A DNA stretch of 64,000 nt from Tigriopus japonicus (taxonomy: Eukaryota; Arthropoda; Copepoda; Harpacticoida; Harpacticidae), in assembly GCA_010645155.1 (NCBI GenBank), contig CM021315.1, positions 9,228,819 through 9,292,818 of the forward strand. The letters are read 5' to 3'. Within the stretch, counting starts at the first letter, position 1; every line of letters begins with the position of its first letter. Below the pieces are notes generated by a model. The model was not told the origin of the DNA and did not search any database. It saw only the letters and a program-made list of their open reading frames with translations. Of this stretch, positions 21,901-58,787 are shown piece by piece. The translations under genes were made by a program, and so were the position numbers.

Positions 21901-24900
21901 TACCCTGGAAGCGTATGGAGTGAGCCCAGTTATCGGCTAAAGTAATGGTTCCAAGAACCCTTCGAACATTGGCGCAATTTTAGAAAAGACTGATGTGGAA
22001 GGGGCGAAACCTGTGCATAACGCAAATCATCTCCACTCTTTAAGGCGAAGTGCTCAGGTTGGCATTTGTAAATGGCAAGAGGACGAATCGCCCACACTTC
22101 ATCTTCGAAATCAAACCCATTTAATTGGCTTCCCAAGCTGTACATCAGTCATCACGATTCCATGTTAAACGTTTTGTTATTTTCAAGCGCTTTTGAAACT
22201 ATTGCGAATCTTCTACATTCCATTGGCAGTACACTTTGACATAATTCCGCTTCAACCAGCCAAATGGTCAAAGGGCAAAGCATATAGACCCAATTCCTCA
22301 ATCAAAATTCAAGGTCTTCTTGTATGTAGATAATATTTAGCCATGAGTTGACTGGCGTTAAATGGGGGATCGGACGTTTAGGACATCAATCCTCAAACGG
22401 GCTTTAGCCGGCCGATTCGCCGTTTCACTTTGCCTGTATCCGCAGGTTTGCTCGTGAACGCCGCTTCAGTCTCAGTTTGGAGTTGGTCGGGTTAAGAGTG
22501 AGTGAATGCAAAACTGCCAACCAGTCCATCTCGACTAGGATGACCTCAGTAATGTTTTCTCTCGACCAAATTTGAAAAGAAAACAAAGTGGAAGTTCTGC
22601 GTGGGTTAAGTGATTCAGTGTAGTAGTGACTTGGTGTCCTAAAATCCACCCATAAGCCTCTTTCCATTTGCCTTTGTGATTGTGCACTGTTGTGTGTAGT
22701 AGTGTGGTGACTCATCTCGGCTAAGTTGGTGCTCAGTGAGAGGTTTGGGTCATTTTCACGATCGATAACGTGTATGAACGCAGCTTCAACATTGTGTTTG
22801 ACATGGCTCAAAGACATTCAAAGTTGTATGTTCTCCTGAGCGCAATTTGAGGGGGAAAGTTCGACCATAATGGCCATTGAAATGGAACCTTGAGGCCTTT
22901 GTTGAAACAAATTTTGAAAGTTTGTGCAATATGAAAAAGTGTTCTCATGTAATGGGGCATGCATGTATTACGATTGTCTTTCTCGCCTGTACGATTGTGG
23001 AGGAAAACAAGAGACAATGAAATTTAAGTGTTGGATTCGCTGCAGGTTCCATTGACTTTCAAGGCCACTAAGAGGTCATTTTCTGACCAATCCCAGTTAT
23101 TTCACTTTCATCATGACACATAGTTAGATTAGCGGAGAGATGATGAGACAGCGAGACCCAGGTCCGTAAATTGATCCAATTTGGGCTCGAGTTTCTTGTT
23201 TACTTTGGGTACACAACAACAATGACAACGTTCCACTCTTCATTCCCGACCAACACATGGTCTTCTTAGAAATTTCATAATTCTAAATCACTTGCAACAG
23301 TTGTTGTGCGTCTTGTACAAATTGGGGAAGAGACATTGTGCTTTTGTGTTTTATCCCTTCAAATCTGAGCATGAACCGCCAATCGATGTTTCCTTTGAGA
23401 AGCATTTTTTGGTCGGTGAGCAGGAAGTAGTTTGTGTTGGAACAGTCCAGGTGGTTCAACAGGCTGCTGCTTTCACCACTGTTCCAGCTTTGAAACAACA
23501 CGAGAGTCTTTGTGCAGGATAGTAAAAGTATAAAATGTATCTCGTCCATCCCGGGATCCTCGTCAAAGTTGGATCCGGAACGATTTGAAATGGCATTTTT
23601 TTTTACTTGCTTTGGACCAAGTGGAACATAGGCCGTGGATCATTCCTTTGACTCGCTGGTAGTTCTAAGTAAACATCGTGACACGTTTTATTCTGAAGGA
23701 AATACCTCCATGTTAGCTACATGTCATGCTTATTGGTTGATTGTCGTATCAGTCCTCTCCTTGTTCCGGGAGAGTTTGGCACAAGGGCCTCAAGAGTGGA
23801 ACAACTCACTCATTCGCCGTGAAAATGACCTCCATCCTCTCTCCTTGAGATTGTGATTCTTGTGATTAGTTCCACCAAAATGAGCACGGATCTGGAACGT
23901 TCCCGATCGGCTGCGGCCGATTTGACCTCTTCAAGTGCCAGACCAAGGGTGAAGGAGTCGGAAGGCCCTTCATCACCTGTGAATAGTGTCAGTGCTTTGA
24001 GACGGAAACAAAGGCCGCTAACGACGGCCTTGTCCATTGATTCCTCATCCTCGCCCACAAATCCTGGAAGTGGGAATCAGAATCATAATAACAACAATAA
24101 TAATAACGACACGCACACGAACAATAACATTGAGAATAAGTTCTCGGTGAGCGCCAAAGAGGCTGCCGAGGCCAGAAATCAGATCCTGAATGAAATTAAG
24201 GCTCTTCAGATTAAGAGACACAGCAGCTTCAAGAGGATCTTGCGGGGGAAATTAAGAGGAAATCCTGACGGTAAGATGATGCTTAAAGGTTCAATCCCCA
24301 CTCGTTGACATCCGTTTTGAATGTCTTTGAGATACGTAATAGGGATTTTTTTCATTGTTTCATTTGTTTGTAACTTTATCGGCCTCTTTAGAGTGCTTGA
24401 ATTGGAATGCACTTAAAGCGAATCCTGATAAACCCTCCTTATTCGCTTTAAGTCATGATCCGTTCAAAATTAAAGTAATGTAGAGATCCTAAAAATAAAA
24501 ACAATACAAAGAAAAACCACATGCGCAACAGTTGCTTTGTTAGGAAAATGAATGACAATTGAGAGAATGGCCTGATCGGTCAATCAGGGTGTACTTCAAA
24601 ATTTAGCGTTATTGCCCAAAGTGATTTTTAGTACCACTTTAAATTATTAATGTTCACAACCCACAGCCATTAAGCTCCTTTTTCCTCAATATGAGTTGCA
24701 TTTTTGACTTAACGATTGGTAGAGGAATGAGTTCAAAATATATTCGTGAGATGGCGTAAGTGTTGTTCTCCGTCAATGCAACTCCGATTCAAAGCGACAT
24801 CATGCGGAGGTGAAGTTAAGGTTGAGCTTTTTTCCATAGTCAGGGAATGACAATGATCGACTAAAAACATAACAAAGGCAAGCCTCTCCATCACTTTTAC

Positions 24901-27900: not shown

Positions 27901-30900
27901 GATGTGGAATCTAGTTTAATCAAGAGCTCGGTCCTCAAAATAGCTCGGTCGACAGATGGATATCTTGAAGAGTGGAGACCAAGAAGAGCGGTCGGTCTCT
28001 TCGATAGCTTTTTCTCCGGCGGATTCATAAATCAAATTGTGACATTTTAAAATCAGTCTGAAATTGAGTCCAATGCATGTTCGTCCACCTAGGCACATCA
28101 TACATTGAAGTCAATCATTTCCAAAGAGGAACTGTACACTTAACTTCCAATTAGGTTAGTGCTGTTCTCAAACGTTTACGGTAAGCCAAGAAAGTCTGGC
28201 TTTGTTTCCTTCAACTAAAACCAACGAATGAAATACTTTGGACAAACAGTTTATAATGAGCCACCCTTGGTGTTGTCTGAACCTACTTACATGCGTGACG
28301 GCATAAATAACGTGATGTACGAAATGTTTGTTACAATTTTTGGCCTTATTCTTCCCACGATTGAATGAGCTTTGGTATCAGAAACAACAAAATCTCCAAG
28401 AGTGTCAACCGATTGTTTAAGATGTCTTCTTGATCGTTAGTGAGTAGGAATTGTATCAGTTTTTGCTTGTAAGATATTCAGGCACCCATCCAATCAAGAT
28501 TTTGCCGTTGTTTGGGGATGCTCTTTCTCTCATCCCCAATGGTCTCGCAATGACCAACTTTCGGTTGATGAGTATGTTGATGAGTTTCCTCAGGCTTGAA
28601 TATCAATTGGCCGGGTGGCATTCATCAGATGACATTTTGATGCCAAAATGTACTTAAGCGCACCCTCCTTCAACATGACTTGATATTGAAAGAGAATTAC
28701 GAGGTTCAAACTACAAGAAACCCAGTCCCTTTAGATGACAGGAAATGACTGAAATTGAAGCCAAATGACTCGACTAGTTGCCCTCTCATTCTCGTGATTC
28801 TGAACTTTAGAAATGGTTCACCACCACTCCTACCATTTATAGTAACCTTGATTTAGCAAGGAGACTCTCTTCGTTTAAGTCGAATGTTCTGGCACCTCTT
28901 GCCCCCCGTCAATTTTCAAAATGAACATGTTCAGATTGAAATTCAATTTTTCATACATTTTCAACGCTCCGTCGATCGCGTGCTTTGTTTGTAGAGGAAT
29001 ACTTTTTGAGGTCGCAAGAAATATCCATTTGGATTTAGGCCACGAAATGGGCATATCGGTTTGTTAATTGAGAGCTATGAGATTGCTTGTTGGTCCATAA
29101 TTGGACATCATTTCGATGACCCTCACGAACCATCCATAAAAAAGAGCTCAAAGGAAACACAAAATACCTCGTCCGTGCATGTGCTAAACAGCTGTGATGG
29201 TTTTACTGCGGACAAATCGAGAAGATCGTTGTCAGGTTGGGACTTCTGTTTTCCATCATGGTGGTGAGCAATCCCGCTTCGCCAAGCAGACCATCCTCAT
29301 CATCCAATGTGGTTCGTTTGGCCAGTGTGTGGCCCCTTGATGCGAACGTTACTGGTCATTCATTGTCTGGTCTTGGAGAAGGTTCGAGCGTTCTGGCCAA
29401 GATGAACAATCTCAAGACAAAGATTCGACGGAAGTCTTCCAAATATTCATTTGCCTCTCGTCGTGATGCCGGATCCGAGCGCGTGGATTGGGAATTCGTT
29501 GGATTTCCCTCGTCCAATAATGCGGGATCATCAGGTGTCCCCTCGTTTACTCTGGAAGGAGGCGTGGGCGTACCTCAACAACCCGGGGTTGTGAATCGGG
29601 GACTTCACTTTCAACGGGACCAAATCCAGAGACGTTCCATGCACGACCCTCCGATTAGCTTCAACCTCGATGAACCGGTGAACAATAACATGATGTCTGT
29701 GAACAATAACATAAATCCTAGTCGTCGATTAGGCGAAGAACCACCTCCAGTTCCTCCACGCCAGTCTCATATGAACTCGAGAAATATTAATATTCAGCCA
29801 TCTGGTCATGGAGCTCCCGTAACACGTCCCACTTCACTGTACGCTAAACTAGACGTGCCATCTAGCGAAGTTAACAACAAAAATGAGTTGTCCCGCAAAC
29901 GACCTCGGTCCAACGTCCCTTCACCACTTTCCGAAGAGGCTGGTACGCCCCCTTCAATACCGCCACATCAGCATAAATTCAAGCAAATTCAAGAAATGCC
30001 CCGGTCTCCTCCACCTATTCCACCTCATTTACATGGATCAGGGGTTCCACATCCTTTGCCACTTAGTCCACCAGCTCCCCCGCCTCCTCCACATGCTTCT
30101 CCAATTCCACCTTCCATGCATAATCAAATCCCAATTCGGGGTGAATCGCCCACCTACTTCGAACCTGTCTCTCAATCGGGCTCCCCTCCTTATGACCGAC
30201 CAATGTCCTTGATGCTCAGGCAACCAAAGCCCACTCCTACGATTGAAGTTGAGAACAAGCCCACATCACCCTTGTATAGAAAACCGGTGTCACTGAGGAA
30301 CAATAAAGCCAAGGCTAGGCAAGCTCAAGCAGAGGCTCGTGCCAAGGCTGCTGCTGAGGCTGCATCAAGACGGAAGTCGTTCCAAGCTTTCGAAGGTGGC
30401 AATGGAGGAATAATAAATGAAGGCTCCCTTCCCACCCGCAATCGTCAAAGGCGAATGTCCTGGGCTCCCTATCAGGAGATGGTAATCGAGGAGCGAAATG
30501 CTTACGACACGGTCCCTGAGCCGAAGCGATTGGGAGGCAAAACAAAACTTCAACTGAAAAAGAATCGGGAACAAATTCCAAGACAAACTGTCGACCCTCA
30601 CAAACTAACGAATCGCTCAAATGACATATCCTCTCAAGAGAGCCTCATTGATCAGGAGAGGGCTGGTGCCAAACCAAAACGATCTAAACCCAAGCACAAG
30701 AAGAGCTCAAAATCCGTCGAGAAAAAAGAAATCACAACAGGTAGATTATCTAATTAAATCTCCGAACCCCATCAATCTAACCCACGCACCATTCGCATAT
30801 TCCCTTTTCAATCTAATGACGCAACGTTAATCGTTACTCAGTAAGGTGGTGGTGTGATTAAACATGAATCCTCCACCCACATTTTGTTCATAGATTTTAA

Positions 30901-33900
30901 ACTGCTTGAAAGATAAGTTTGATTCCTTCGGCCTTTTTTTATTCCTTCTCAAATCTCATCTCCGTCCATCAGACGTACCTTCAAGTGAGGTCAAATCAGA
31001 CTTCAGTTGCCCAAAACTTGAGATTTTTTAATCGCGGTTGAAAGATTCTATTCATAATCGTTATATTGACTCATAGTCAACACCTAATTTAAATGGTATT
31101 TCTTTGTTACTAAATATATTCATGGGCGAAATCGTTCCATTATATATGCCCAATTTATAGCTCCGATTGAATGATTGATGACAACAATTGGACGTCCGAA
31201 TCAAATGAAATGTAAATCAAGCGTTTTCTGTCATGTCAAAAGAATGCACGAATAATTTCCATGTGAGTCAAAAAGATTTGTTGGCAGCTTCTGAATGCTT
31301 TTTGTAGGTTGATAATGACTTTCCAGATTTTTTTAATGAAATAAGTGGCTCTATGGAATCGGGTGTAACATCTTATCGTTGATCTCACCGCTCAATTTGG
31401 ATGTCAATACAGACGTGCAGCTTTGAGATTAGCTTCGGTACTCCTAGTGTTTAGGCGAATCTGAACTCGAGCTTTTTGCTCGATGAAAAGGAAATCGTTC
31501 AAATTCGAATCTGATTTTTGAGCCGTCTATTTATATATTTTGCGTTGCGTCACGTGCAAATATTGCATTTCTGAGGGTATCTTTTCTACACATAGGTATA
31601 AGATCATATTACAATAACAATTCGATCCCTGAACTATTTCACATTGAAATTCATGTCCTTAAAATTTGGCACACTTTGTTCCATAATTAAGTCGTCAGTT
31701 CTTTATGTTAGGAATTCTAATTAGATTTGAAGGGCGAGGGTTATCTCAGGGAGGCAGAATTGGTTAGTTGGTTGTTTGATTGATTGATCATTACAGACAC
31801 CAGAAAATACTCACCTATTTCGAATACCGCCAATTCCGTTAGTTATGGAAAAAAATGAAAGATTCGTTCGAGTCAGAGCCTGTGAGACTCAGCCCAACAC
31901 TAAGCAGAACTCCCTATTCCCCCAAAAAATATCTGGACATGTACGTTTCAATTCTCAAATCAAGTTGTGTCGAGACACAAAAGCATTTTTTTTATCAGAG
32001 TATTTTCTTCATTTTTCTTGTTGCCTTACGAACCACTAATCTTGGCCTTGACTTAACCAAGGCCGTCATTTTGATCCTTAAGACGGCAATGGACACGATT
32101 ATAGTTCACGCCGCAGTGAGTCAATGTGTCTGATTCGATCTTGCTTCCATGAGATCTGGGACATGGAAGTGATTGCGTTGGCCGTCTGTTGAAGGAATTG
32201 AATCAAGGTTGATTGGACTTTTCGGAAACATCCAGAAGAGTAGCAAGGAAGAATAAAACGTAAACAGAGGCTGCTTTCCTTGTCCTCATCACTTCCATAC
32301 ACTCGCTAACTGATGTTTCAACATTGCCCAAAAAACGGAAATGCAGGGCTTTCCTCATTGACGTTGAGGTTTTTTTTTACTCTCGAAGTTTTTTTTGCGA
32401 ATTCAAAGTGCTAAGCAAAACTTCGGTGTCTTTGGCAGTGTTTGGAATGAAAACTTTGGAACAAAATTGCGGAACCCCTGTTCCATAACACATGCGAATC
32501 ATTTCCAATGAAACTCCACATAACGAATGTGTATCCAGATCCATCACTTCGCTGGAATTGAAGACATGTCTTTGAAAGCCCTTATTAGTGAGGAACACGT
32601 AGACGAACGAGAATGACACCGTGAATTGTCATTTTGAGAGTGCTGTGTCAAATTATAGGCCATGAAGAATCTACGAATTGAATCTGAACGAGTGCTGGCC
32701 TCATTCACAATCGAATTTGTTCATATTACCTTGGGTAAAAGCATTTTGCAACTTTTCGGACCTTTTTCGCTTTCCACTTCAACATCTCTCATTTCCAACA
32801 CTATTTTTCAAATTTGACGTACGTTTTTTTTTCTCTCATTCTAGGAGAAGTTCAACATCCGCAAACTCGGGTGTCCCTCCCTCCGGTGCCTCTCTCTAGT
32901 TCTCAAGTGCAACCCCCCGGTGACAACCCCGACCATTCGATGCCCACTTCCAGTTCAGCTATTAGTTTGAATTCAACTCCAGATACAAGTGGTCCCTCAT
33001 CGTCAGTGCCTCTTGGATCCAATGAGAAGTTGCACAAATCGCCCGCTAGAGGGCATTTCAGGTAAGGTTTTGTGTGGGTCTTTTGCTTTCCAATCATGTT
33101 AGCGTGGTCGTCTGCTGCTCTCTATGGGTAGAATCGCGAGTTAAGGTTGAATTTGCAGAGACGCATTTCTTCTCTAGAGCATCGTAGTAAATTGAGGCTT
33201 AATTGCATTGAGACAAATCTGGTGTCGTTTTTGTCGCTCAATGTTATGAATGTTTCTTTTTCCTGGAATGGAGTCATTGGGATAGGCGCCTATTCGAGAA
33301 TATCGGCGGAAGCTTCGAAGTTTTGCCTCACCTCAGTCACGATCAAATTCCTAATGGACTCCTTGAAAGTTGATAAAGACAACGATGGGGCTAAAACGCC
33401 CACTAGGGTGTGCTATGATTCATTGGACTCAGAAAGGGTTTGTTTGGTTTCAAAGGGACACTGTTTACCAACATAAAAATCCTGCTCAAAGTAGACATGT
33501 TTGTTAAAGAGATCAAGAAGTCCACGTTCTGTTGTTGTTATGCGTTGTCCCAGAGGGGTCTCGATAAAAAATATCTCACCTAGAAATTCTTTCATGAAAG
33601 CAATTGCTGTCATTTCTATTGGTGCCATATTTCGGACTTCTTAATTGAGCAAAGCAATCTGGAGACAAATTGGATCGGTTTACTGCTGTCAAGAATTGTA
33701 CAACTTGCATCTGACTTGAATTCGGTTTACCTGAAGTGTTCCAAAGGTGCAAATATACCCCAGATTTAGCCAAATTAGCATAGCTATAATGTATTATCCT
33801 GTTATGGAGTTAAAGAATCGAATGTCATTGTGATTGTGTATCTTAAAGCCTACCTTTTGATTTTTCAAGGAGTTAGGATATTTCTCAAAGCATTGCAAAA

Positions 33901-48900: not shown

Positions 48901-51900
48901 GTGCTTCTCGAGTCGGGGACAAAGCCCCTCCTCACATTGTGCAAAGAACACAATCAAACCCAGAAATGGATAGTTGTCCAGTGTGTTTGGCTCGAAAGGA
49001 GTGTGAGATCCTCTTGAAGCGAACATATAGCAAGGTATGACGTCACACGTCTCTGACAAGTTTCGTTCTCATCCCCTTGTCCTTGTTCACGCATTGGAAA
49101 AGTGCTGGGGAAAAATCCCCTTCACTTACTTACTCTGTATTCATTATCGGTCCATCGACCGAGTCTCACTTGAACTCGATTCATTCGAGACAGTACAAGA
49201 ACTGATTACGTCGTATATATATATATGTGTAGTTGTGAACTACAGTGGTACAAGAGTCTGATAGTCGGTCATGTTGAACAGGACATTTCTGTTTGAATGA
49301 AATCTTCACCTTTGATCTTAGCTTGGCCAGCTCAGTAGAGACGGTATTTGAGAGGCCCTGGCTTGGCTTTCCTTCTTTTACCCTTCTCAAATTTGAGATT
49401 CTAATCTCGGGGGCCATAAGCCCCCCAACTTCGTATTATGGTCTGTCAATGCTCTCATCCATCACATTTTTTGAAAACAAAACCTCTATTGATCACATTT
49501 GATGAGTTTCTCGATTTCTTCGTTCCATGTGGAACTGGAGTCTCTTGTTCCAAATGAGCTTGTAAGGACAACTGTGGCCTCCTGCCGTTCTAGTAAACTC
49601 ACTTTGAGCATAAACAAAGCAAAAGGAGACCTTGCCCGAAGGCAGAAGCACATTTTAAACATCCCCACGATGAATGCCACCAGAGTTCTCGACATTCGGC
49701 AAAAAGAGTTGTTCCCACCTTCCTTCATGCCTGTCGAGAGTTTGAAGTGCTTGAACGTCTTCTTTTTCATCCAGAGCTTAGACGAGGTAATGAAAAAACT
49801 ATTGATTGCTATAACTTTGTTTTCCAGCGTGGAACCCCTGGACGTGAGAGGAGAAAAAACTCGGATCCCAACCTTCCACGGGGTAGAACCAGGCAAAGGT
49901 AAGAGGATATCTTTCTTTCTTTCTTTCTTTCTTTCATCCTTGCCTTCTCCGGTTATTTGAAAAGCTCTATAATGACTGTACTTTTATAAGGTTAGGTATG
50001 ACCCCCTTTGCGAAGCAAGGAAGCAAGTGTAAAGAATTTGAGTTTTAAATTTGATGTTTTGTGGAGCCTGAAAGATTTTCAAAATATTTAGATTTTTTCA
50101 CTAAACTTACATAGAGCTGTGGATCTCGTTAAAAATTGTTGATTAACACATTAATCAGAGACGAGCGCATAACATCTGTGCCTTTCCAAATATGAATTGT
50201 TTTGGCTGCTGTGGCAAATTTTGAGGGACATTTAGATTGGGGTCGAATGTCCTCCTGTTTTAACGACGTCGTCCACGTCTTGAACTTACCAACATCATCT
50301 CCAAAAATTAATCTAGCTTTCTCCCATGCTGACTAAGCTAATGTCCTTCTCTCGTTCATTCGCTGTTTCTCAGGTTCTCGCAAACAGAGACTTCGTAATA
50401 GCTTCCATCAAATTTGTCAAGAGGTAACGACGACCAAGACGCTTTGGAGCACCATTACTTTTAGACAAATTCCTCTCACACTTCCATTCATTGTGGTCTT
50501 CGTGTTGTCGCATTTCCGATATTTGATGGAATATCTTTGGAAAGAGGTTCAAAACGGGAAAAAAGTTCGCTTTCACAGACTTTTTGGCAAAGTCCGAATT
50601 TTCTGTTCAAGTCTGAAAAAAAGAGGCGAGCGAGTTGGAGAGAAAAAAGTTATGAAGGCTGTAGAAACATGAGTTGATATGCATTTGAAATGTATTCCTC
50701 GCCAATCCGACTTCTACCTCAGATACTTGGCATCTAGATCTCTCGTCGGGGTTGCCAAGGTGCCACAGAAAATGTCCAATTTTGAAGGAACTTTGTTTCA
50801 AAGGACATTCAAGAGATTAGAACGACTGGCTTTCCAAAGAGTCGGAAACTAAAAGTTGCTCTCGTAGAGATCCCAATGAAGATAACAATGGACATTCGAT
50901 TTCCTCCTGTCTCTTCGGACCAACTTTTTAATTTCGCTGTTCATTCAAGCGGATTGAGTGGCCCCAAATTGGCTTTCTTCGTACTTTCCCTGGAACTGAA
51001 AGGTACAGCTCAGCTCATCGGTCGAATGCATGCCAGTTGTCCTACTCGCTAGTAGTGAGGAACTGATAAAGGATCGCCAATAGCTGTACTAATATTGAAT
51101 CAGGCCTTCGTCCCGATGGAACACGACCACACTTTATGACCTCTTAACGTCAGAGCCAACTGGCGCAATGGTAAATGGACGTCTCGTCGTGATCAAGTTT
51201 TTTAGGACGGAGACATTGGTAAAGTGATTGGGTTGATTTGATTACTTTAACCGAGACTGTCTGCTGTTAGTGACATACGTACGTGCGAGGCCGTAGTTTT
51301 TCGAATGAAATTCTCGAGGATGTCCATATTGTGAACGCCGGTGGAGAGCGTTTGCCTCAAATATTCAAGTCTAATGACGGGCTTGTGCACTCATGCATGC
51401 TAACGAAAGTCTTCATTTTTCTCCAGTTTTGAAACGGTCAGCCTTGCCAACAATATTTGACAGTTTTTCTGAATGAGTTCTTTAAGTTGTCGTGGTGTGA
51501 TTCTCCACCTCTTTTTGGCCTGCCTGAGTGCCTACTTCTCTCATTTCATATTCTCTTTCTCGGCTGATCTCAACATTAACAAGGCAGACTTGAACTTGAC
51601 GGGTATTGAAGAGCTTAAGAGAAGGTTTCCTACTATTGGAACAACTGGATAGGACCAGATCGATATCATAATGGATCAACTATATCAAATACCTTGTTCT
51701 TCAACCGATTTACTAAAAATCGTGCTTGAGCTCAAGGCTAATCCGAGTCCAAGTGGTATGTGTGACCGACTATGTTTTATAAACATTGACGTCATCAGCT
51801 CTGCTGCACCTTATTCGTCGAGATTGGTCCTATTAGGAGATAGTGAATCGAAATTTTGGCAAATATACCTCATCTTTTTTCTTGATGGCAAACAGAGAGA

Positions 51901-54900
51901 AGTTGGTTGTACTTGGATTGGTCGATTTTCGATATCCGTGGAATGAACCTGTCAATTTGAGAAGCTTGTCCTCTCCACGTAATGTAGTACATGTAGTGCT
52001 GAGGAGGAGCTCTTTGATCTGAGTTTGTCAAGTCAGAGCAAGAAGGAGAGAGACTTATGATGAAGAGAGATGACGATGATGATGGTGATGATGATGCCTT
52101 TCAATGAGTCTCTGTGTGAGGGCCAGGAAGAAGAAGTAGTAGTTAATGTATTTCAGTGTTGGGCAGAAAGTCAAGGCGAGTCGGAATCGGTCGACGCTCG
52201 AGTTTGTTTGTTGTATGTACGTTCTTTGTTCCTTGGTAGGACCTTTAGGTGCTTTCCTCTGCATATGCCTCGTCCTTTCATCCGTCTTTCCAACTCCTCT
52301 GAGGATATTATTGCTGCTGCTGCAACTTCTACCTACGGGTGTTACTTAAACTAATACCACTACTACTGCTACTACTGCAGCTTTTCTGCAACAACTACTA
52401 CAATTCTTCTTGTCCTCGGTCAAAGCGAGCAAGGCGTTGAAAATTCATAACAAATGATTTACTTGTGTTGACGTTGCCTGAAAATCGAAGTCTCACTCCA
52501 TTGTTGAGGATCATGTTGGACCTCGGGGTTGCAAATATCTCTTGTGGGCAACACTTTGAAGTACATCAGTCAGAGCTGCATCCAGTGCAACAACGTAAAA
52601 GTTCTTAGTGTTACTTAAATGCTAGCTGACGAACTTGGAAGGGATTTCCCGGGCACCACAAAAGGAATTGGTGCAGCAACTGGTGCCAGCGTTCCATAAT
52701 GTGCAAATAGGCAGTGTGTTGTGTTTGAGTGAAGGATCATGAGCTTCCCAATTGATCGTGGTCGAACCATGACCACGGCCTTGTCAACCTTCCTACCAGA
52801 TGACGACCAGTCTTCGCGACCCTCCGAAACCCTTCGATTTGTCCTGGCTCAACCCACGGGGTCTCTGCGAGTGGCTCATCCTCGCAGAAGCTCGAGTGAA
52901 AAGAGACTGGGTACCTTCAGCCCAACTCCGAACTCATTAATGGACATGATCTCGAAGGCTAGAAGGTCGCCAACAGACCAACGGAGAGATCGCTCCAAAT
53001 CACCTTTTCCTTTTCGGAAAAGGACGCGAAGTTGTTCCGAGTGGTAGGTTTGCATGATAATTATGAATTTCATGATTCGAAATTGAACGGGTTTTTTTTG
53101 ATTACTTGAATGATCCAAGGTCGAAAAAAAGGGGTTCAGGTTATTCATATGTATGGCAAAGACTGGGTCTGTTCACAATATAACGTTAGCTGTTTTGGGC
53201 TTCCCCTTCAAGATCAGTTCGTTTCAAGGACGCCTGAAAAGGGAGTTCCTTTCCCAAAACCCTTAGCCCTTAGGTTCTCCTGTTCTTTTCTTCTCGCATT
53301 TCCTTTGGGCTGGTGTCCCTCTATTTCAGGACAAATTTATTATCACCACTCTGGCTCCTTTTGAATTCTCCCAGATTGCACTTTCGGCGCCGTCTGTGGG
53401 GTCCATTTTTTGGCAAGACGCATTGAATGTGATGATCAGCGTCATACTCGTAAATACGCTGAGCAATGGAATTGAACAAATTGACTCACAGGCGTGTTCC
53501 CCAACATTAACCTGATGTTGTTAAGTCACATTGTTTTAAAACTTGATCCGTGATTATGATCGGTGGAGAAAAGGTGCGGACTGCATTCCCCTTTATGCTC
53601 TTATTAAATTTATGGAGAAGGGATCATGGCCGTATTTCCTGAAGGTGCTTGGCTTATTATTCAAGAAATAATCGGCCAAAGCAGTTGTAGTAACAGCCAT
53701 AACGGAGAGTCGACATTCAGAATAGGCAGGGATGTACTCTAACTAGAGAGCGTTAGGGTGCAGTGGGCCGCAGGTGTGCACCCACCACCCACTGCCACCT
53801 CCTGCGGTTCTTTGTGTTCTGTCCCTGGTCCGCCTTTAAGCTCTTGGTGAAACGCAAATGCGAGCACGTGTGTCTTGGGATGGAAAAGGAGAAGCTCCAA
53901 GGCCAAGCCAACCATCAATGGGAAGAAGAGAGGGCTTTTGCGCTGAAAAGACCAGGCAATTTTGGTCGAGGAAAGACGGCTTCTGTATGGAACTTGTGCG
54001 AGAGAAAAATGAACACGAAACCTTAGGGAAGAAGAAAAGGAAGAGGCGGACGGGAAGAAAGAGAAAAGAAGGAACTAGCTTGTATAAGGGAGGCGGACCA
54101 ACGAGCAATGAGTTCGGGAACATATCGGTTCGAGCCGGACTAGTCTGTAGGGGACCGCCTAATCAGGTGGGTCAAAATTGTGAACAGAATGCCACTAGAC
54201 AATGTGATACCATCATGGTCGGATGTGTTGGAAGTGGCTCAAAGCCTGGAGCTTTGGGTCGAATGCGCTCAAGTTGGCCAGGATGATCTCGTGAATGATT
54301 TCGATTTTATAAGTGGGAACATCGGGTCGCTGTGTAGAGCCATTGATGGGCTCTCGGTTGGTGTTTGTGAACTGACAAGTGGCGGATTGACATGCCTCCG
54401 AGTCTAATCAGTACATACAGAGAAAAGAGCCAAGAAGTGATCCTCCTTAGAACAGATGCACTCATGATTAACATGGTGGAGTATCATCAGAGGGTGCTAA
54501 AGCCAGAGCAAAATGAAGTTGAACTACATGAAGCCAAGCCATTGCCAATGACTTCGTCACTTTGCTACTGCATCCAAGATGGTCAAAACTCGCCCAACGA
54601 CGAGGAGGAGGAAGAGATGTTGGGTCACGCCACGAGGCAGGCCGCCTCGGCTTTTGCAGCCTCCCTCATCCACGAAGAACAAGGGAAAACGTCCCATTTT
54701 TCCGACAAGGAGCCTCCTGCTCCTGCTCCCCCTCCTCCACCTTCACAGCGACCTCGATCGGCCTCCCCATTCCCGCACCGACATCAACAGAAGAAACTCT
54801 TGCACAATATGTCAATGCCAACGGTGATTGTGCAAACAATTGACTGCTCACCAAGTACACACAGAAAACATGCAGGCAAAAAGAAATCGCGAAAAAAGAC

Positions 54901-57900
54901 TGCACGGTCGCAAAGCCTCTGTGTTTCACGTGACCAAGGACCTCTGTTGCCTCAGCCTCGGATTCAAGTAACGCAGTTCATTAGCACGGGGCCACCTTCG
55001 CTCCCAATCGTTGGTCCACCTCCCCTAATAGTGCAACAGCCTCCCACGCCCACTACCCCAGTAAGAGATATTGGTTCTCGTTTGGACCACATCACTCCAA
55101 GCCCGGCTCAATCACCTTCGAAACCAAAACCAAGTCGACTTCATCTACCCACCATTCATTTACCAGCCAGTGACGATGATGAAGAAGAGGAGGTCACCAA
55201 TGGTAATAACGAAGACTATGGGCTTCATTTTGAAGTACCTGAGCGAGCCTCAGCGACCAAGGACCCAAACCATTCCACATGTGAAATCAGAATAGAGTGT
55301 GACGGGTCGGCAAGTGGGGGTGGTTCAGAAACTCCTCCGATCGAAACTCCCAAACGAGGGCGCAACCGACGAAAATCACTCGTGAATCTGCTATTTCCCA
55401 AGCAGGGTACAAACTCTACTGCCACCACCCCAACGTTAGAAGCTCCCCAAGGGCAGCGACTCCATTTCCGTCGAGTTTCTGAGATTTTTTCTCGAATGGG
55501 AAACATGGGCAAGGACGAAGCCCAAGACAGTGATGGCAAAAGAAAGCAGCCGTATGATGACATGGACACTCCTCAATCCCCACCTGAAAGTTGTGGATTG
55601 TCCATCCGCCACCTCTTTCCATATCGACGTCGACGGAGTTCCGTGTCTCACTTGGACAATACAGATCAATTCAAGGAGTCCAGAGAGGAGATCATACAAA
55701 GTGCTAGACGAAGAATGTCCAGTTTCCCTCCTATGGATGGGGACGAGGCGGCTATTATGCTGGAGAAGGCTCAAGTTATTCGTTTGGAGCAGGCTCATCA
55801 GGAAGCCTTGGCTTTACAATCTTCCAATGCTGTGACCAACGCCTTTCGCAAACTAAGGAGGGGCTCACGATCTCCCTCCCCAATGAGCCTTCTTATGCCC
55901 GGACTAAGCAAAAACAAGAAATCCAAGTGGAAAAGCTCCACGGACATTCCCACCTCCAACACGGATTCCCCTGGCTTGAAATTGGGCGAGTTCACGTTCA
56001 ACAATAGTCAAAGCAATAAGTCTCCCAACCTAACCCTTCCAGGTTTCTCAAACGCTCAATCAGATGATTTTCCCTCCGGCACCAGTGTTGTCAGTAGTGT
56101 TGGTGATTCACAAGCATTCTCAGCGGTCAGTGCCACGTCGCCATCAATATGCGATGATACTGATTCGCCCAGGCGGCCTTTGTTTGTGTTTCCAAAACGT
56201 AAAATTGAAGACGTCCCGGGGATTTACATCCCAAGCGGGAAACCTAGTAAAACAAAAACAACCGAAGATGCAGACATCAAGAGCCTGTCCAGCAACCTCT
56301 TGGCCGTAATGCAAAACAAACCCAGGCGGCATTCCATGTCCGATCCAATTTTTCTTCAGAACTACGCAGCTAATAATCCGCGTCCAATTCTCCTCCCCAG
56401 ATCACCGTACTCGACAGACTCTCCGTGCGCCAGGTACAAACCATCTGGTCGTCATTGTATTTATATCCGATCTCCCAACTCCCTTGGGTGGTTAATTACG
56501 AGGCTCTTTGTGTCAGATCCAATGAGTTGAAATGTCCTCTTAGTACGGCGACGTCCTCGTTGTTGTCGTCCTCGTCGTCGTACTAGTAATGTTAGTGTGA
56601 GCCTTCATCGCGAGGACTATCAAACTTTTGTTCCACAATGTAGACAGAGTTCTCGGTTTCTCCGTTGAAGAAAAAACGTTACAGAGACGGTCGTGGCGTG
56701 GTTGAATTGCCATGAATGTGACCACAAGGCCTTTTTTCTCTCTGAATACTTCCGAAAGTGCATGCTTTGTACCAGACTTGACATAAAAGGATTACATGCC
56801 ATAACTTGCACTTCATCAAGCCGAACTCGTGGCTTGGCATGAGTAGCCAGATATGATGGGGCGGGTTATTTTTGGAGCAGAAGAGAGCTCGAAACTTTGC
56901 TTAGGCCCTCATCATGGTCCAATCAAGTTTTCTTTCCTTCTTTAAGACCTTCGCTAATGTTTTCGAAGACCTTTACTTGTAATTGTGTCAGATGCATTCA
57001 TTTCGTAATTACCTCACTCACTCATCGTCCTCTGGTCTCAGGTGGCCCTTTAATGCACTAGTGATGCTTGCTTCCTTGCTGGCTTGCATGGTCCATAATC
57101 CATTCAAGCAAAGGAAAGAACCACATTTCAGGAGATTTTTCCCCTCCTCACCCGCTCGCACTGACGTTACCAGCAATCCTTGAAAGGCTGTAATTACCAA
57201 CTCCTGTTGTCATGGGCCTTGTTTGTCCTTTAGCAACGTCAATGTGTCGGTCGGTCGTAGGTCCAGTCTTTTTGTTCCATGTCCCACGAAAGACATCGAA
57301 GTGAGAGGTCCATCTACGAGGTCGCATGTCATAGAGTGGTTCCTCCCGATTGTTATAGTTGTCGCTCCACGCTGAAGGTAAAACCTTAGTAGAAACAGCG
57401 ACAGGGAAACTGAAAGCCCAAACGCTTGGGAATTGAAGAGTACGTCGACCGTACTCTCGAGGCTTCCATATTATTATGCCATTCATGGTCGCTTTGACTT
57501 GACTGTCGGATGCCTTTGAACTTACTCTTATGAAGTTGACCGGTTCCCAACGGCAAAGGTCACGGAATGGCACGTTGGAGATGAGCGAAAATTTCAGTGA
57601 TTGATAGAGAGAATTTGAGCGAGCGGAAATACTTTCTTTTTCACCAGAGCCCAAAGAAAAATTCGATTTGATTACAGGGTGGCTAACAATTACTCGAACA
57701 TTAACTAAGGTGAAGAGAAAGATATCTAGCCATCTTAAATTAACTAACATACGATGGTTTTTTAGCAACTTACATATTTCAAACGGCAAATCACGTACTC
57801 GTATATGAGAAATAAAACCTCCGTCAGTTATTTGCAAGCAAGAAATTTGAGCATAGTATTTTGCAATTAAGGTTTCTATCATGTCAAGGAGGTAGCATGC

Positions 57901-58787
57901 TCGAATAACAATTAGTCACCCTGTACAGAGTGTGTTTCAAATTGCCCAGGGCGAAATACGGGTTGCAAACATGGAGTGGAACCACCATATTCGAACCTCG
58001 CTGGTCTCGAGATCTTTTTTGCACTGTCTATTGGTTCTTGGTAGCTTTTTCATCCATGCCACTCACGGTGGACGTGAAAGGCCTGTTTTCATGGTGTGAC
58101 CTCATGTATTTATTCCCCACCAGTTGAGTGAGCCTTCTTCCCTCGTTCATTATTAAACGGAGGCTCTCGTCTTGAGATATATCAGCCTTGTGGGTGGGTT
58201 GTTGGGTTGCTCGGTCGTCAATCACCCGTAATGAGCTTACTGCTGATCCAACTTGGATGTCCGCCAATGTTCCAAACCACTCACTTAGATTTGTGGAACA
58301 CGATGAGCCGTGAGAGTTCGATTGGATCGAGATATCTTTAAGCGCAACAGTTTCCACCAATCGGGCAAAGAAGTAGTAGTAGGATTTAACGCACTTGCCA
58401 ACGTTTTGACAAGATTATGTGAACGACGTTCCCCATCTTTTCCTTTCTTGTTTTTGAAAGCTATCTGCTCTTTTTTGCTTCATTACATCTGAATTTGGAT
58501 GCTCAATCTGAGTCGCCGCTTCATTGAGATCCCTCAGCTGACTTGAGAAAAAGCACTCACGCAGCTATCCATTATTCTCAGAACTCGAGTACTACTCGTT
58601 CACTACGTTGTTAATGATATGTTCCATAATTCGCTCCTCCCATAAAGGGACTAGCTTTTTGAGGTCCAAATGAGACATAATCATGACATTTTCCGCACTT
58701 TTTCTGTTCCAGTGACGTCGAAGTCGAGATTCCAACTCATCAACAAACAACCAGCTCAGGGAGCTCAACATCCAGTCTGTCAGCCAG
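12655..58787 (+). CDS. RhoGEF2: RhoGEF2/PDZ-RhoGEF-like gene, gene-level entry (partial at 3' end)
   Basis: Rho guanine-nucleotide exchange factor of the RGS-RhoGEF class. By family, Galpha12/13 binds the RGS-like domain and the DH-PH module activates Rho1/RhoA at the cortex for actomyosin contraction. The inferred chain is 12655-12966, 13690-14081, 14149-14422, 15817-16077, 17072-17223, 17623-17859, 18448-18731, 18904-19053, 19534-19584, 32845-33061, 43167-43248, 49828-49898, 58713-58787. All introns are GT-AG and all junction phases match (0,2,0,0,2,2,1,1,1,2,0,2). Domains seen are RGS-like and C1, plus a pre-DH Ser-rich motif. The DH and PH exons must lie beyond 64000. A PDZ exon is not seen and may lie left of the window or be absent. 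Six or more alternative first exons lie inside the long introns. Identity from RGS to C1 is secure. The links across the 13-kb and 10-kb introns rest on phase and on the pre-DH motif. Confidence 0.8.
13690..14081 (+). CDS. RhoGEF2: RhoGEF exon 2: basic, Ser/Arg-rich region
   Basis: The acceptor is TTCTCAAG before ATGAATCCTGAGG, phase 0, matching the previous exon. The donor is CCGAT before GTACTT, phase 2. It begins MNPEEEIHSIVKRHSMAEER and continues with many basic phosphosite-like motifs (RRMS, RRSS, RRRTS). It ends in a more ordered stretch (SFRLVLSSLYETFIDPCSP). I recognise no domain. Without the short intron that follows, the frame would stop at a TGA at 14194-14196. Confidence 0.65.
14149..14422 (+). 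CDS. RhoGEF2: RhoGEF exon 3: helical region before the RGS-like domain
   Basis: Starts after CCCACCCATTTCAAG (one base, completing an ATG codon with the previous exon) and ends CCA before GTACGT, phase 0. The peptide looks ordered and partly helical (DHFVSLYEVSDEDF, MAAAAVLNTISMASDFLKSL) and then turns basic (RKSNVKLKNNINAKSKK). I do not recognise a domain, but the composition is clearly coding. The 67-nt intron before it (14082-14148) is inferred, because the two frames on either side differ by one base. Confidence 0.6.
15817..16077 (+). CDS. RhoGEF2: RhoGEF exon 4: acidic segment and start of RGS-like domain
   Basis: Acceptor TTCTTTCCCAG, donor GCTCTG before GTAAGT, phase 0 at both ends, 87 codons. 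A short Pro/Ser linker leads to an acidic segment (NMEEDDDCDDQGDES). The first RGS-like helices follow: KHVWDLIAHNAHLAVFIVFV, then DPAAL. In p115-RhoGEF and PDZ-RhoGEF an acidic stretch sits at the same place before the rgRGS core and contacts Galpha12/13. The pattern HLxxFxxxVxxxxDPxxL matches the start of those domains. This exon therefore probably carries part of the Galpha-binding surface. Confidence 0.88.
17072..17223 (+). CDS. RhoGEF2: RhoGEF exon 5: RGS-like domain, central part
   Basis: Acceptor TCATCTTTCAG, donor AACTC before GTAAGT, phase 0 in and phase 2 out. It continues the RGS-like fold: FFYLLTDPDHYHKSLKDM, KWAYEIHSTFLVPDAPL, then KIPNITEQIVNEINS. In PDZ-RhoGEF/LARG the matching segment reads LLFYL, then an alpha-helix, then FLEKNAPLRVKIP, as I recall it. 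This alignment is the clearest evidence for the family. Confidence 0.92.
17623..17859 (+). CDS. RhoGEF2: RhoGEF exon 6: RGS-like domain, C-terminal helices
   Basis: Acceptor TCACTTTCGCAG, donor CTTTAAG before GTATGT, with phase 2 entering and leaving. It encodes LEERFDQEEAHKTLFVKARS, then LQLEDFTSERLAGLSRFSG, a small charged loop, and KENQVINDQLIPVIDTL. This covers the distal helices of the RGS-homology domain, where the human proteins read I-x-x-Q-I-x-D-Y-R-x-x-R-x-x-G-L. Confidence 0.92.
18448..18731 (+). CDS. RhoGEF2: RhoGEF exon 7: linker and first half of C1 domain
   Basis: Acceptor TTTGTTTCAG before CAACGAT, donor TGTCAA-A before GTGAGT, phase 2 in and 1 out. A linker (MFLSDKKSKLFGKNIKKIP) leads into a C1 domain: H, twelve residues, then C (HNFELKQFTHLTMC), then NFTKGTIWGIGPQGYAC. 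IWGIGPQGYxC is the classic C1 core. By family, C1 domains bind diacylglycerol or phospholipid, or serve as protein docks. The second Cys of the first pair is replaced by Thr (CNFT instead of CxxC). A start of the same exon in another frame gives no C1, so the frame is certain. Confidence 0.92.
18904..19053 (+). CDS. RhoGEF2: RhoGEF exon 8: second half of C1 domain and tail
   Basis: Acceptor ATCCTCGTTCCAG before ACTGTGAT, donor TCCCAG before GTCAGT, phase 1 in and out. Joined to the previous exon it reads CQNCDFNVLKKFVHRVEEPC, which completes the C1 domain. The positions normally held by His and Cys (CDFNV-H-KK-C) are Leu and Phe. After the domain comes RKVTKATQLSKFASDLGLPL. This resembles the Lys-Ile-Ser-Lys-Phe stretch after the insect RhoGEF2 C1 domain, as I recall it. 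Confidence 0.9.
19534..19584 (+). CDS. RhoGEF2: RhoGEF exon 9: short post-C1 exon
   Basis: A 51-nt exon with a strong acceptor (CTTTTTTTCTCATTCCAG) and donor ATCG before GTAAGA, phase 1 in and out. It encodes RESLRIFNTDQDEFDI plus split Gly codons. The next phase-compatible exon I can find is 32845-33061, 13 kb away. Confidence 0.8.
19585..23879. other. Intron; no further exon seen
   Basis: Open frames here have no recognisable protein features on either strand. The minus-strand frame at 21084-21506 (140 codons) has no start context, splice partner or family motif that I can see. The right end should hold the promoter and 5' UTR of the alternative first exon at 23880. Confidence 0.5.
23880..24270 (+). 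CDS. RhoGEF2: Alternative first exon A (Asn-repeat head)
   Basis: Starts at ATG 23880 in the context CCACCAAAATG. The last in-frame stop is the TGA at 23826-23828. It ends CCTGACG before GTAAGA, phase 1, with 130 codons. The protein starts MSTDLERSRS and is Ser-rich. It has a run of seven Asn after NQNH (residues about 69-78), then a charged, probably helical end (EAAEARNQILNEIKALQIKR) and a basic tail (SSFKRILRGKLRG). A possible acceptor at 23868-23869 has the wrong phase for the upstream chain, which supports a first exon. The phase-1 end fits exon 32845-33061, giving a Gly at the joint. I infer a RhoGEF isoform without RGS and C1 domains; nested-gene use is the alternative. Confidence 0.6.
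24411..24453. repeat. Perfect 13-bp inverted repeat with 17-bp loop
   Basis: Left arm ACTTAAAGCGAAT at 24411-24423, right arm ATTCGCTTTAAGT at 24441-24453. It lies in the intron about 140 nt after the donor of first exon A. It could be a stem-loop in the transcript or the remains of a small inverted-repeat transposon. Confidence 0.85.
26837..26860. repeat. CAT/ATC microsatellite
   Basis: Short run of CATCATCATCATC followed by ACTACCACCA, in intronic DNA. Confidence 0.75.
29258..30740 (+). CDS. RhoGEF2: Alternative first exon B (494-codon proline-rich head)
   Basis: First ATG at 29258 (ATCATGG context). The frame is open back to a TGA at 29195-29197. It ends ACAACAG before GTAGATT, phase 1, a weaker donor. 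The 494 residues are disordered. A basic patch near 48-70 (LKTKIRRKSSKYSFASRR) comes first. Proline-rich SH3/WW-type motifs follow near 150-165 (EEPPPVPPR) and 227-290 (PPSIPPH, SPPPIPPHLHG, PLSPPAPPPPPH). An Ala/Arg/Lys-rich probable helix spans about 350-373 (KARQAQAEARAKAAAEAASR), then RRKSF and RRMSW phosphosite motifs and a Lys/Ser-rich end. The phase fits the Gly-Glu joint to exon 32845-33061. I recognise no known protein. Coding status is very likely; membership in the RhoGEF gene is inferred. Confidence 0.7.
30741..32844. other. AT-rich intron with one weak candidate first exon
   Basis: Mostly AT-rich and non-coding. One short possible first exon (31855-31940) is described in the findings. 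The end of the stretch is a clear pyrimidine tract and acceptor at 32844. Confidence 0.5.
32845..33061 (+). CDS. RhoGEF2: Shared RhoGEF exon 10: Ser/Pro linker
   Basis: Acceptor TTTTTTTTCTCTCATTCTAG, donor CATTTCAG before GTAAGG; phase 1 in, phase 2 out. It encodes EVQHPQTRVSLPPVPLSSSQ, then a Ser/Thr-rich stretch (SAISLNSTPDTSGPSSSVP) and a basic end (EKLHKSPARGHF). It is the only exon found that accepts phase-1 donors, so it can join exon 9 of the long form or first exons A and B. Similar Ser/Thr linkers lie between the C1 and DH domains of insect RhoGEF2. Confidence 0.8.
33062..37123. other. Intron; no exon seen
   Basis: No coding exon supported on either strand. The sequence TGAAGTGTTCCAAAGGTGC at about 33732-33750 recurs near 45980, a hint of a dispersed repeat. 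A CTC/TCC microsatellite lies at 36858-36878, before the promoter region of the next alternative first exon. Confidence 0.5.
36858..36878. repeat. CTC microsatellite
   Basis: TTCCTCCTCCTCCTCCTCCACC run, about 250 nt upstream of the first ATG of alternative exon C. Confidence 0.75.
37124..37327 (+). CDS. RhoGEF2: Alternative first exon C1 (acidic head)
   Basis: ATG at 37124 in an excellent start context (GTGCCATGG). The exon ends CACATCAG before GTGGCA, phase 0, after 68 codons. The peptide is acidic (FHATELEPVEDEEDELNH). The next exon (37494) starts in phase 0, 166 nt away, behind a usable acceptor (CAATTTCCAATAG). Together they give one continuous reading frame. The protein is not recognised. 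Confidence 0.6.
37494..39166 (+). CDS. RhoGEF2: Alternative exon C2 (557-codon Ser-rich head)
   Basis: Follows exon C1 in phase 0 and ends CTTGTG-TG before GTAAGA, phase 2. It encodes 557 disordered residues rich in Ser, Arg and Lys, with repeated basophilic phosphosites (RRRSIS, RRNSSGYHS, RRKSLAV, KRSSMQS). A probable amphipathic helix (EELLKLAEELEIMNMVGHDI) lies about 120 residues into this exon. Near 425 comes a more ordered basic-aromatic patch (LSFKERSWTEIERLWKGKVK), and the C-terminus has TKSPSIESTPEMDAHFENLL. The TG end pairs with the G of exon 43167 to make Trp. If unspliced, the frame would stop one codon later. I recognise no family. Confidence 0.7.
39167..40719. other. Intron; no exon seen
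   Basis: No coding exon is supported. Near 39440-39475 there is a GAC/GAT-rich patch, and GCTAGCTAGCTAGCT follows near 39500. The last 40 bases form a good pyrimidine tract before the acceptor at 40719. Confidence 0.55.
40720..41772 (+). CDS. RhoGEF2: Alternative exon D (cassette or first exon, Cys/His patch)
   Basis: Can be read two ways. It has a good acceptor (TTTGGCGTTTTCTAG) giving a phase-2 entry, so it can follow exons ending in phase 2 (33061 or 39166). It also has an internal ATG at 40748 that could start a first exon (341 codons). It ends TTTCCAG before GTAGGG, phase 2. Features from that Met: a basic Arg/Pro start (PPARTRRRRPSSDASDEH), a proline patch (LFTPPPFRTS), an aromatic-basic patch near 140 (NWKSRANRWLWGGSKKEK), KPRHRTNSFS near 225, and a Cys/His patch near 274-281 and 325-337 (CGFDCADH; CNYPNCHECSQH). 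No family recognised. Confidence 0.65.
41773..43166. other. Intron; no exon seen
   Basis: Ordinary intronic sequence without supported exons. It ends in the pyrimidine-rich acceptor TTCCTTACTGTTTCAG. Confidence 0.6.
43167..43248 (+). CDS. RhoGEF2: Shared RhoGEF exon 11: Ala run and basic segment
   Basis: An 82-nt exon with acceptor TTACTGTTTCAG and donor GAAGCG before GTAAGT; phase 2 in, phase 0 out. It encodes DAAAAANSSPKTGNRVDRSQ and SLRDQEA. With AG donors the joint codon is Arg; with the TG donor of exon C2 it is Trp. It converts phase-2 transcripts to phase 0 and so allows splicing to exon 49828. Confidence 0.75.
43249..48149. other. Long intron with microsatellites, no exon seen
   Basis: No coding exon supported. 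It holds a GTT then GAT microsatellite (44734-44797) and an AT-rich patch (about 45885-46085). The last kilobase should contain the promoter and 5' UTR of alternative first exon E. Confidence 0.55.
44734..44797. repeat. GTT and GAT microsatellites in tandem
   Basis: A GTT run (GTTGTTGTTGTTGTTGTTC), a second GTT run, then ATGATGATGATGATGCTGATGATGG. The whole stretch is non-coding. Confidence 0.85.
48150..49034 (+). CDS. RhoGEF2: Alternative first exon E (295-codon head ending in a CPVC motif)
   Basis: Clear first exon: the start ATG at 48150 directly follows an in-frame TGA, so no coding exon can precede it. It ends AGCAAG before GTATGA, phase 0. The 295 residues are mostly disordered: an acidic stretch near 56-70 (ARNEDDSDDDADDESSLS), basic phosphosites (RRERSHS, KRRSVS), a Pro/Thr block (LTPPISTPPPTSITPTSS) and a more ordered SPHVRFSNIEDRAGQFRYPY. 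Near the end comes DSCPVCLARKECEILLKRTY, a CxxC-x5-C cluster. The phase fits exon 49828. A RhoGEF isoform head is inferred; the family of the head is unknown. Confidence 0.72.
49035..49827. other. Intron between exon E and shared exon 12
   Basis: Contains a short TA repeat (49213-49228) and ordinary intronic sequence. It ends in the acceptor AACTTTGTTTTCCAG. Confidence 0.6.
49828..49898 (+). CDS. RhoGEF2: Shared RhoGEF exon 12: basic 14-3-3-like motif
   Basis: A 71-nt exon with a strong acceptor (ACTTTGTTTTCCAG) and donor GCAAAG before GTAAGA; phase 0 in, phase 2 out. It encodes RGTPGRERRKNSDPNLPRGR and TRQ. RRKNSDP resembles basophilic kinase and 14-3-3 sites. It accepts both phase-0 donors found (43248 and 49034) and returns the frame to phase 2, as needed by exon 58713. 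A (CTTT)n tract starts 13 nt after the donor. Confidence 0.78.
49911..49935. repeat. CTTT microsatellite just inside the intron
   Basis: CTTT repeated about six times, starting 13 nt downstream of the exon 12 donor. Pyrimidine tracts at this place can bind splicing factors and affect use of the upstream 5' splice site (general knowledge). Confidence 0.85.
52067..52096. repeat. GAT/GGT microsatellite
   Basis: GATGACGATGATGATGGTGATGATGATGCC run in non-coding DNA. Confidence 0.8.
52306..52375. repeat. Tandem GCT then ACT microsatellites
   Basis: TTGCTGCTGCTGCAAC followed about 30 nt later by ACCACTACTACTGCTACTACTGC. Non-coding, about 370 nt upstream of the exon F start. Confidence 0.75.
52739..53043 (+). 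CDS. RhoGEF2: Alternative first exon F (101-codon basic head)
   Basis: The ATG at 52739 follows an in-frame TGA nine bases upstream, so this is a first coding exon. It ends TCCGAG-TG before GTAGGT, phase 2. The peptide starts MSFPIDRGRTMTTALSTFLP, continues with HPRRSSSEKRLGTFSPTPNS and a possible helix (SLMDMISKARRS), and ends in a strongly basic tail (RRDRSKSPFPFRKRTRSC). Because it lies 3' of exon 49828, its phase-2 end must go directly to 58713, giving a Cys codon at the joint. Not recognised as a known protein. Confidence 0.68.
53044..54391. other. Intron and 5' region of exon G
   Basis: I see no firm exon. An open frame near 53858-54170 ends at a good donor (CTAATCAG before GTGGGT) and is very rich in Lys/Arg. 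It could be a 5' UTR or upstream exon for exon G, but no coding link is evident. Confidence 0.45.
54392..56433 (+). CDS. RhoGEF2: Alternative first exon G (680-codon head, largest)
   Basis: Starts at ATG 54392 or a later in-frame Met (54464, 54473). It ends GCGCCAG before GTACAA, phase 2, fitting exon 58713. The head is disordered overall. From N to C: an acidic run (NDEEEEEML), a proline cluster near 110 (PPAPAPPPPPSQRPRSASP), a Lys-rich patch (HAGKKKSRKKTARSQS), a second proline block, an acidic run near 263 (DDDEEEEE), several RRKS/RRRSS sites, a probable helix near 450-485 (AIMLEKAQVIRLEQAHQEAL), then SPMSLLMPGLSKNKKSKWKS. The end has RRPLFVFPKRKIEDVPGIYI and RRHSMSDPIFL. Unspliced, the frame runs on to a TGA at 56528. 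Coding is near certain; the family is unknown. Confidence 0.75.
56434..58712. other. Intron with a MITE
   Basis: No coding exon supported. It contains the mariner-like MITE at 57673-57925. A 244-codon minus-strand frame (57148-57882) begins inside that element and has no recognisable features. The intron ends in the acceptor CTTTTTCTGTTCCAG. Confidence 0.6.
57673..57925. mobile_element. Mariner-like MITE, 253 bp
   Basis: The left end is TACAGGGTGGCTAACAATTA. The right end, read on the minus strand, is TACAGGGTGACTAATTGTTA. The match continues through CTCGAACAT and TTCGAGCAT, so the terminal inverted repeats are about 29 bp with roughly seven mismatches. Ends starting TA-CAGGGTG are typical of Tc1/mariner-family elements, which insert at TA. 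There is no transposase frame, so this is a non-autonomous copy. Confidence 0.8.
58713..58787 (+). CDS. RhoGEF2: Shared RhoGEF exon 13: pre-DH Ser-rich motif
   Basis: A 75-nt exon with acceptor TTTTTCTGTTCCAG and donor GCCAG before GTAAGA; phase 2 in and out. It encodes DVEVEIPTHQQTTSSGSSTS then SLSA, with the joint codon usually Ser (AG+T). Read after exon 12 it gives TRQ-S-DVEVEIP and later SSTSSLSA. Human PDZ-RhoGEF/LARG, as I recall it, has SRSDVDMD and then SASSSTSSLSTRS in the linker just before the DH domain. This match ties all upstream exons to a RhoGEF and predicts the DH domain soon after. The next exon should start in phase 2. Confidence 0.78.

Follow-up and report, generated by a model that had tools for sequence, protein, structure and literature searches.

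The window analysed here, a stretch of 64,000 nucleotides from the Tigriopus japonicus genome, holds only part of one gene, probably about 120 kb long and of the PDZ/RGS-RhoGEF type (ARHGEF11/12, fly RhoGEF2). A search of the genome for RhoGEF domains located two DH exons (C12:9296867 and C12:9299098) on the plus strand, 4-6 kb beyond the window end. The domain-bearing exons are listed below in window coordinates; those past 64000 were obtained by reading the sequence beyond the window.

12655..12966, plus strand: upstream exon of the long RGS/C1 form (acceptor 6.5, donor 5.5, phase 0-0)
15817-16077, 17072-17223 and 17623-17859, plus strand: exons of the RGS-like domain, which continues into 18448-18731
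18448-18731 and 18904-19053, plus strand: exons of the C1 domain
19534-19584, plus strand: exon after C1, leaving in phase 1
67665-74302, plus strand: pre-DH, DH and PH exons
between 74302 and 95866, plus strand: intron of 21.6 kb that splits the second PH domain
from 95866, plus strand: last PH exon, followed by tail exons to at least 97488

The joined exons 15817-18731 matched the RGS-like domain (PF09128, E = 2.4e-25, 89.8 bits against a cut-off of 27), and the C1 exons matched PF00130 (E = 7.1e-7, 29.4 bits against a cut-off of 26.5). The RGS-like domain is N-terminal to DH, and C1 lies between the two, which is the arthropod arrangement known from fly RhoGEF2. The exons from 12655 to 19584 splice through to the tail without a stop. 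A PDZ match 21 kb before the window start, also on the plus strand (C12:9207387-9207572, E = 6.6e-10), may belong to the gene. The exon after C1 leaves in phase 1, the phase taken by the linker exon at 32845, and the long form therefore probably consists of PDZ, RGS-like, C1, linker, DH-PH and tail, in that order. When the linker-DH-PH part was compared with PDB sequences by phmmer, ARHGEF11 (E = 7.9e-79), ARHGEF12 (1.4e-73) and ARHGEF1 (4.8e-73) were the nearest, and AKAP13 came next, far behind (1.4e-27). The Tigriopus gene resembles ARHGEF11 (PDZ-RhoGEF), ARHGEF12 (LARG), ARHGEF1 (p115) and Drosophila RhoGEF2 in its RGS-like domain, DH-PH and C-terminal tail.

The window also contains a chloride channel gene (4911-8054, minus strand), a single open frame of 1047 codons with a Voltage_CLC match (E = 6.3e-79) and a CBS match. 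It sits antisense within the RhoGEF gene, if the upstream PDZ exon belongs to the latter.

The initial annotation of this DNA had proposed that an array of large plus-strand exons serves as alternative first exons, which give one RhoGEF different N-terminal heads through shared downstream exons. The shared exons proved to be the linker between the RGS-like domain and DH of the RhoGEF gene. What lies beyond 64000, where another complete gene might have owned these exons, is the DH-PH core of the RhoGEF. The seven heads were found as placed, except that 37124-39166 is two exons separated by a short intron (37327/37494); the T. californicus protein P0002 reads across both parts. Heads (h1-h7) and linker exons (L1-L4) are interleaved as follows.

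23880..24270, plus strand: head h1, 130 aa, donor 4.9, phase 1 into 32845
29258..30740, plus strand: head h2, 494 aa, phase 1 into 32845
32845..33061, plus strand: linker exon L1, phase 1 in and phase 2 out, acceptor 9.7, donor 7.6
37124..37327, plus strand: first part of head h3, which opens T. californicus isoform X9
37494..39166, plus strand: second part of head h3, phase 2 into 43167
40748..41772, plus strand: head h4, 341 aa, phase 2 into 43167; alternatively an internal exon at 40720-41772
43167..43248, plus strand: linker exon L2, phase 2 in and phase 0 out
48150..49034, plus strand: head h5, 295 aa, phase 0 into 49828
49828..49898, plus strand: linker exon L3, phase 0 in and phase 2 out
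52739..53043, plus strand: head h6, 101 aa, phase 2 into 58713, the weakest by length
54392..56433, plus strand: head h7, 680 aa, phase 2 into 58713, terminal donor weak (0.5)
58713..58787, plus strand: linker exon L4, phase 2 in and out, acceptor 5.1, donor 7.1

L4 continues to the pre-DH exon 3.7 kb beyond the window end. In the T. californicus proteins P0001 and P0002, L2 carries six extra residues, as if its donor lay 18 nt further on. Pfam placed the RGS-like and C1 domains on exons up to 19584, upstream of all seven heads, so that isoforms opening with these heads would lack both domains, as had been predicted. A Pfam scan of eight heads (h1-h7, with h3 represented by its second part, and h9) gave no match over the cut-off. 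h4 and h5 each match the genome once, at their own locus only.

The array extends past the window, where the initial annotation had missed one head with a PH domain of its own and three heads 3' of the DH exons; a possible further head lies upstream.

13690..14422, plus strand: possible head h0, phase 0 into 15817, frame change near 14170, weak donor, no Pfam match
64666-66042 and an exon from 66389, plus strand: head h8, before DH, its second exon completing a PH domain
starting at 79452, 90431 and 93759, plus strand: heads h9, h10 and h12, downstream of the DH exons within the 21.6 kb intron

Across 13690-14500 a head-like ATG frame shifts near 14170 and then reaches a donor that suits the phase of the following exon; h0 may be an additional head interrupted by a tiny intron, may reflect a base error or may be a decayed exon. 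The joined exons of h8 scored as a PH domain (E = 3.1e-7, 31.3 bits against a cut-off of 25.1). Just before the join, our model of h8 departs from P0003 of T. californicus, and the modelled donor may be wrong. In h9 an internal donor of a different phase scores higher than the terminal one. One more candidate, h11 (92644-92991, past the window), has no donor in its final 100 nt and was therefore not accepted as a head, although it is counted among the candidates. Altogether, about ten starting exons appear to lie in introns of one RhoGEF gene, each encoding a different protein front end, and the heads range from 101 to 709 aa.

We compared the lengths and phases of the heads with chance. Six plus-strand open frames of at least 290 codons occur between 19.7 and 95.8 kb, and all of them are heads or parts of heads (h2, h3, h4, h5, h7 and h8). 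No frame of this length arose in 60 dinucleotide shuffles, the longest having 249 codons. The lengths of h1 and h6 are within chance, as evidenced by the shuffles, which contained on average 5.9 frames of at least 130 codons and 25.8 of at least 100. For the phases, each open frame was assigned the highest-scoring donor (score above 0) among its final 100 nt, irrespective of phase. Thirteen candidates were examined, and all 12 with a donor carried the phase of the next gene exon, h11 having none. At one chance in three each, this agreement corresponds to about 2 in a million, a figure from a test that was not blind, since the rule was set after the donors were seen and the initial annotation may have chosen its heads by phase. 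Six of the candidates were added from lists of open frames, and the five of these with a donor all fit. The phases of the exons at 32845, 43167, 49828 and 58713 were confirmed as 1, 2, 0 and 2, and each of the seven window heads has a terminal donor that matches the linker exon following it in phase. The earlier statement that no exon breaks the rule thus holds within the window, whereas h11, beyond it, lacks a suitable donor. Each of the 11 isoforms modelled reads without a stop from the head ATG to the last tail exon traced. Several exons with their own ATG, each in phase to a common downstream part, are what is expected of genes with multiple first exons.

Counts of core promoter motifs upstream of 11 heads (h0 and h11 left out) were near chance: TCAGT was found at 8 against 5.6 expected, TCAKTY at 9 against 9.1, and TATAAA at 1 against 0.5. 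Codon-usage tests did not set the heads apart from other frames: the heads scored near zero, between the chloride channel gene and unlikely frames, and scores were also weak for most of the established RhoGEF exons.

Searching with the shared tail returned 115 proteins among the 7989 candidates sharing most words; 16 of 116 homologues were mapped onto the exons and 19 of the 116 sequences were inspected. The orthologue in T. californicus, LOC131884098, is named an uncharacterized protein, and two of its isoforms were compared. Isoform X14 opens with h2 and passes into L1, and isoform X9 opens with h3 and passes into L2, the same joins as predicted here; X14 then goes from L1 to L2 without h4. 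A third T. californicus protein, TCAL_16215, consists of h8 with its PH domain followed by the pre-DH part. Three heads are thus joined to the shared RhoGEF part at the predicted exon edges in a second species. X14 and X9 are NCBI isoforms and may be models without full transcript proof. Identity to T. californicus is 86.0% for h2, 86.4% for h3 and 84.3% for h8, compared with 88.8% for the linker, 88.4% for DH-PH and 86.9% for the tail. Long heads that diverge about as slowly as the enzyme suggest selection, and h2, h3 and h8 are likely under selection and unlikely to be noise, as judged from protein identities and not from synonymous rates.

Homologues of other heads were found in part. An open frame, P0116, matched h7 (52% over 224 aa and 49% over 109 aa), and two Lepeophtheirus models, P0008 and P0010, open with sequence resembling h8 (28% over 100 aa), with a PH domain scored in P0010. 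Pooling h7, h5, h4, h1, h6 and part of h0 as queries yielded a single hit, which matched h7. This search scored only the 7981 candidates sharing most words, among which low-complexity words may crowd others out, and the lack of a homologue for h1, h4, h5 and h6 in this search does not imply that none exists. A pooled search with h9, h10 and h12, similarly limited to the top candidates, gave one hit, to h10. BLAST at 1e-4 against the 116 proteins had hits for h2, h3, h7, h8, h10 and h12 (28 residues), and none for h0, h1, h4, h5, h6, h9 and h11; phmmer (E 1) matched h2, h3, h7, h8 and h10 in the same set. Orthologue isoforms annotated in Penaeus, Cherax and Schistocerca lack the RGS-like domain (P0022 and P0024 were checked by Pfam). 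Short RGS-less starts therefore extend beyond copepods, whether or not their heads are related to those of Tigriopus.

The phases and the T. californicus joins support the main proposal of the initial annotation, and we are largely confident that transcripts of one PDZ/RGS-RhoGEF gene begin at many starting exons within its introns. Each head, with its own ATG, would be spliced to the next ordinary exon downstream, presumably from a separate promoter. Starts at h1-h8, between the C1 and DH exons, would produce DH-PH proteins without PDZ, RGS-like and C1 domains. The loss of the RGS-like domain means that these forms should escape Galpha12/13 control, and their location in the cell would then be set by the heads; h8 would supply its isoform with an N-terminal PH domain.

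Starts at h9, h10 and h12, after the DH exons, would instead yield proteins without DH that keep the C-terminal tail. By analogy with the mammalian C-terminal coiled coil, these DH-less proteins might bind the GEF forms and steer them or hold them back. LARG is described as oligomerising via its C-terminal coiled coil (PMC12799961), and removal of the ARHGEF11 C-terminus is described as increasing RhoA activation (PMC3158048). The former source also describes GEF activity as unaffected when LARG oligomerisation was disrupted, which argues against restraint by binding. A structure model of P0058, a DH-less protein, places helices in the tail at residues 360-451 and 499-555 (57 residues), parts of which reach pLDDT of about 75-92 although the model as a whole is poor (mean 47, pTM 0.27). 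On this analogy, a DH-less protein could plausibly bind the GEF forms. The wider idea is tentative: one gene, with starts on both sides of its catalytic exons, would make Galpha12/13-independent GEFs with various addressing heads as well as DH-less decoys or tethers that have heads of a similar kind and share an oligomerising tail, and would have been kept so across copepods. We hold it to be rather unlikely; the weak transcript match of h12 and the LARG result count against it.

One rival reading is that long PDZ/RGS transcripts contain most heads as internal cassettes. h4 could be such an exon, following 32845-33061, since a weak acceptor at 40720 is in frame with it and has phase 2, the phase left by that exon. 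The Lepeophtheirus model P0010 also contains an internal h12-like block of 28 residues and, by eye, an h9-like block. Against this, an in-frame stop lies 0-20 codons before the ATG in h1-h10 and h12, bearing out what had been noted for most of the window heads, and between stop and ATG none of the window heads except h4 has a phase-compatible acceptor (acceptors scoring above -3 were listed, and above 0 for h3). X14 and X9 moreover begin at h2 and h3, and X14 bypasses h4. Internal cassettes are accordingly an improbable account of most heads. It is less probable still, to the point of being very remote, that the heads are parts of another gene, or of several, interspersed with the RhoGEF. The eight scanned heads are without a Pfam match above cut-off, and nothing in them indicates a RhoGEF. 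However, the required phase differs from intron to intron (1, 2, 0, 2) and each head obeys the one set by the intron it lies in, a pattern that a single alternative partner exon would not produce; the T. californicus proteins, which link three heads to DH-PH, largely refute separate genes for h2, h3 and h8.

The DH-less heads h9, h10 and h12 call for a weighing of their own, as they might be prediction artefacts or noise transcripts without a protein role. Their support consists of the maker model Tk06815 (P0058), which is probably from T. kingsejongensis, a Trinity ORF (P0111) that is weakly h12-like, and part of one Lepeophtheirus model; the neighbouring candidate h11 violates the pattern. 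In Tk06815 an h10-like sequence is joined directly to the last PH exon, and h10 is 57% identical to it over 189 aligned residues (49% over 203 columns in BLAST), which speaks against an artefact. P0111 likewise joins another head to the last PH exon, with 38% identity to h12 over 106 aligned residues and no BLAST hit. Its likeness to h12 leans mainly on a by-eye likeness to a block of P0010, and the 28 residues shared with P0010 are the sole BLAST hit of h12. Neither Tk06815 nor P0111 had a Pfam match, hence no DH domain was detected in them. Also against an artefact, h9, h10 and h12 are all in phase 2 into the last PH exon, with the frame open into the tail. We regard artefact or noise as rather unlikely for these three heads, though the weak transcript match of h12 and the LARG result raise its odds. 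Genuine starts in the introns of one RhoGEF gene remain our preferred reading of the array.

Such an arrangement is already known in kind, since plectin is described as having a dozen alternative first exons (PMC8468861). In that source the plectin heads are short and all pass into one exon 2, whereas the Tigriopus heads are 101-709 aa long, lie in several introns, pass into several acceptor exons and omit differing numbers of domains. Kalirin, for which alternative promoters and splicing are described as giving functionally distinct isoforms (PMC5385350), is a RhoGEF of a different subfamily. In the open-licence literature searched on the RGS-RhoGEF family, no member was described with a comparable array of N-terminal heads, and the open-licence literature searched for exchange factors of Tigriopus, which brought up a study of shrimp RhoA, did not describe the arrangement. 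Databases already contain part of it, entered under the isoforms of an uncharacterized protein. The unusual features are how many heads there are, how long and how well conserved they are, their distribution across several introns, and the DH-less forms. Cells must choose where Rho is switched on, and this locus suggests an evolutionary answer in which starting exons added in introns give one catalytic core many addresses and possibly supply catalytically empty partners too. The three conserved heads h2, h3 and h8 are each a ready tag for asking what positions a RhoGEF.

Two features within the heads were observed in addition. An AlphaFold model of h7, the one head considered for disorder, was built from two sequences; it was mostly unconfident (579 of 680 residues below pLDDT 50) and had helices at residues 425-489. 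This segment (55664-55858) is the best conserved in P0116 and is modelled in blocks with pLDDT of about 60-84, and h7 may hold a small structured module there. Heads 3, 4 and 7 contain recurring short Leu-Phe runs after serines and before basic residues, as noted by eye. About 36-64 kb past the window end, several look-alike single-exon open frames lie in both orientations. One of them was tested and was Kelch-like, under the Pfam cut-offs. Open frames labelled by eye as reverse-transcriptase-like are interspersed with them.
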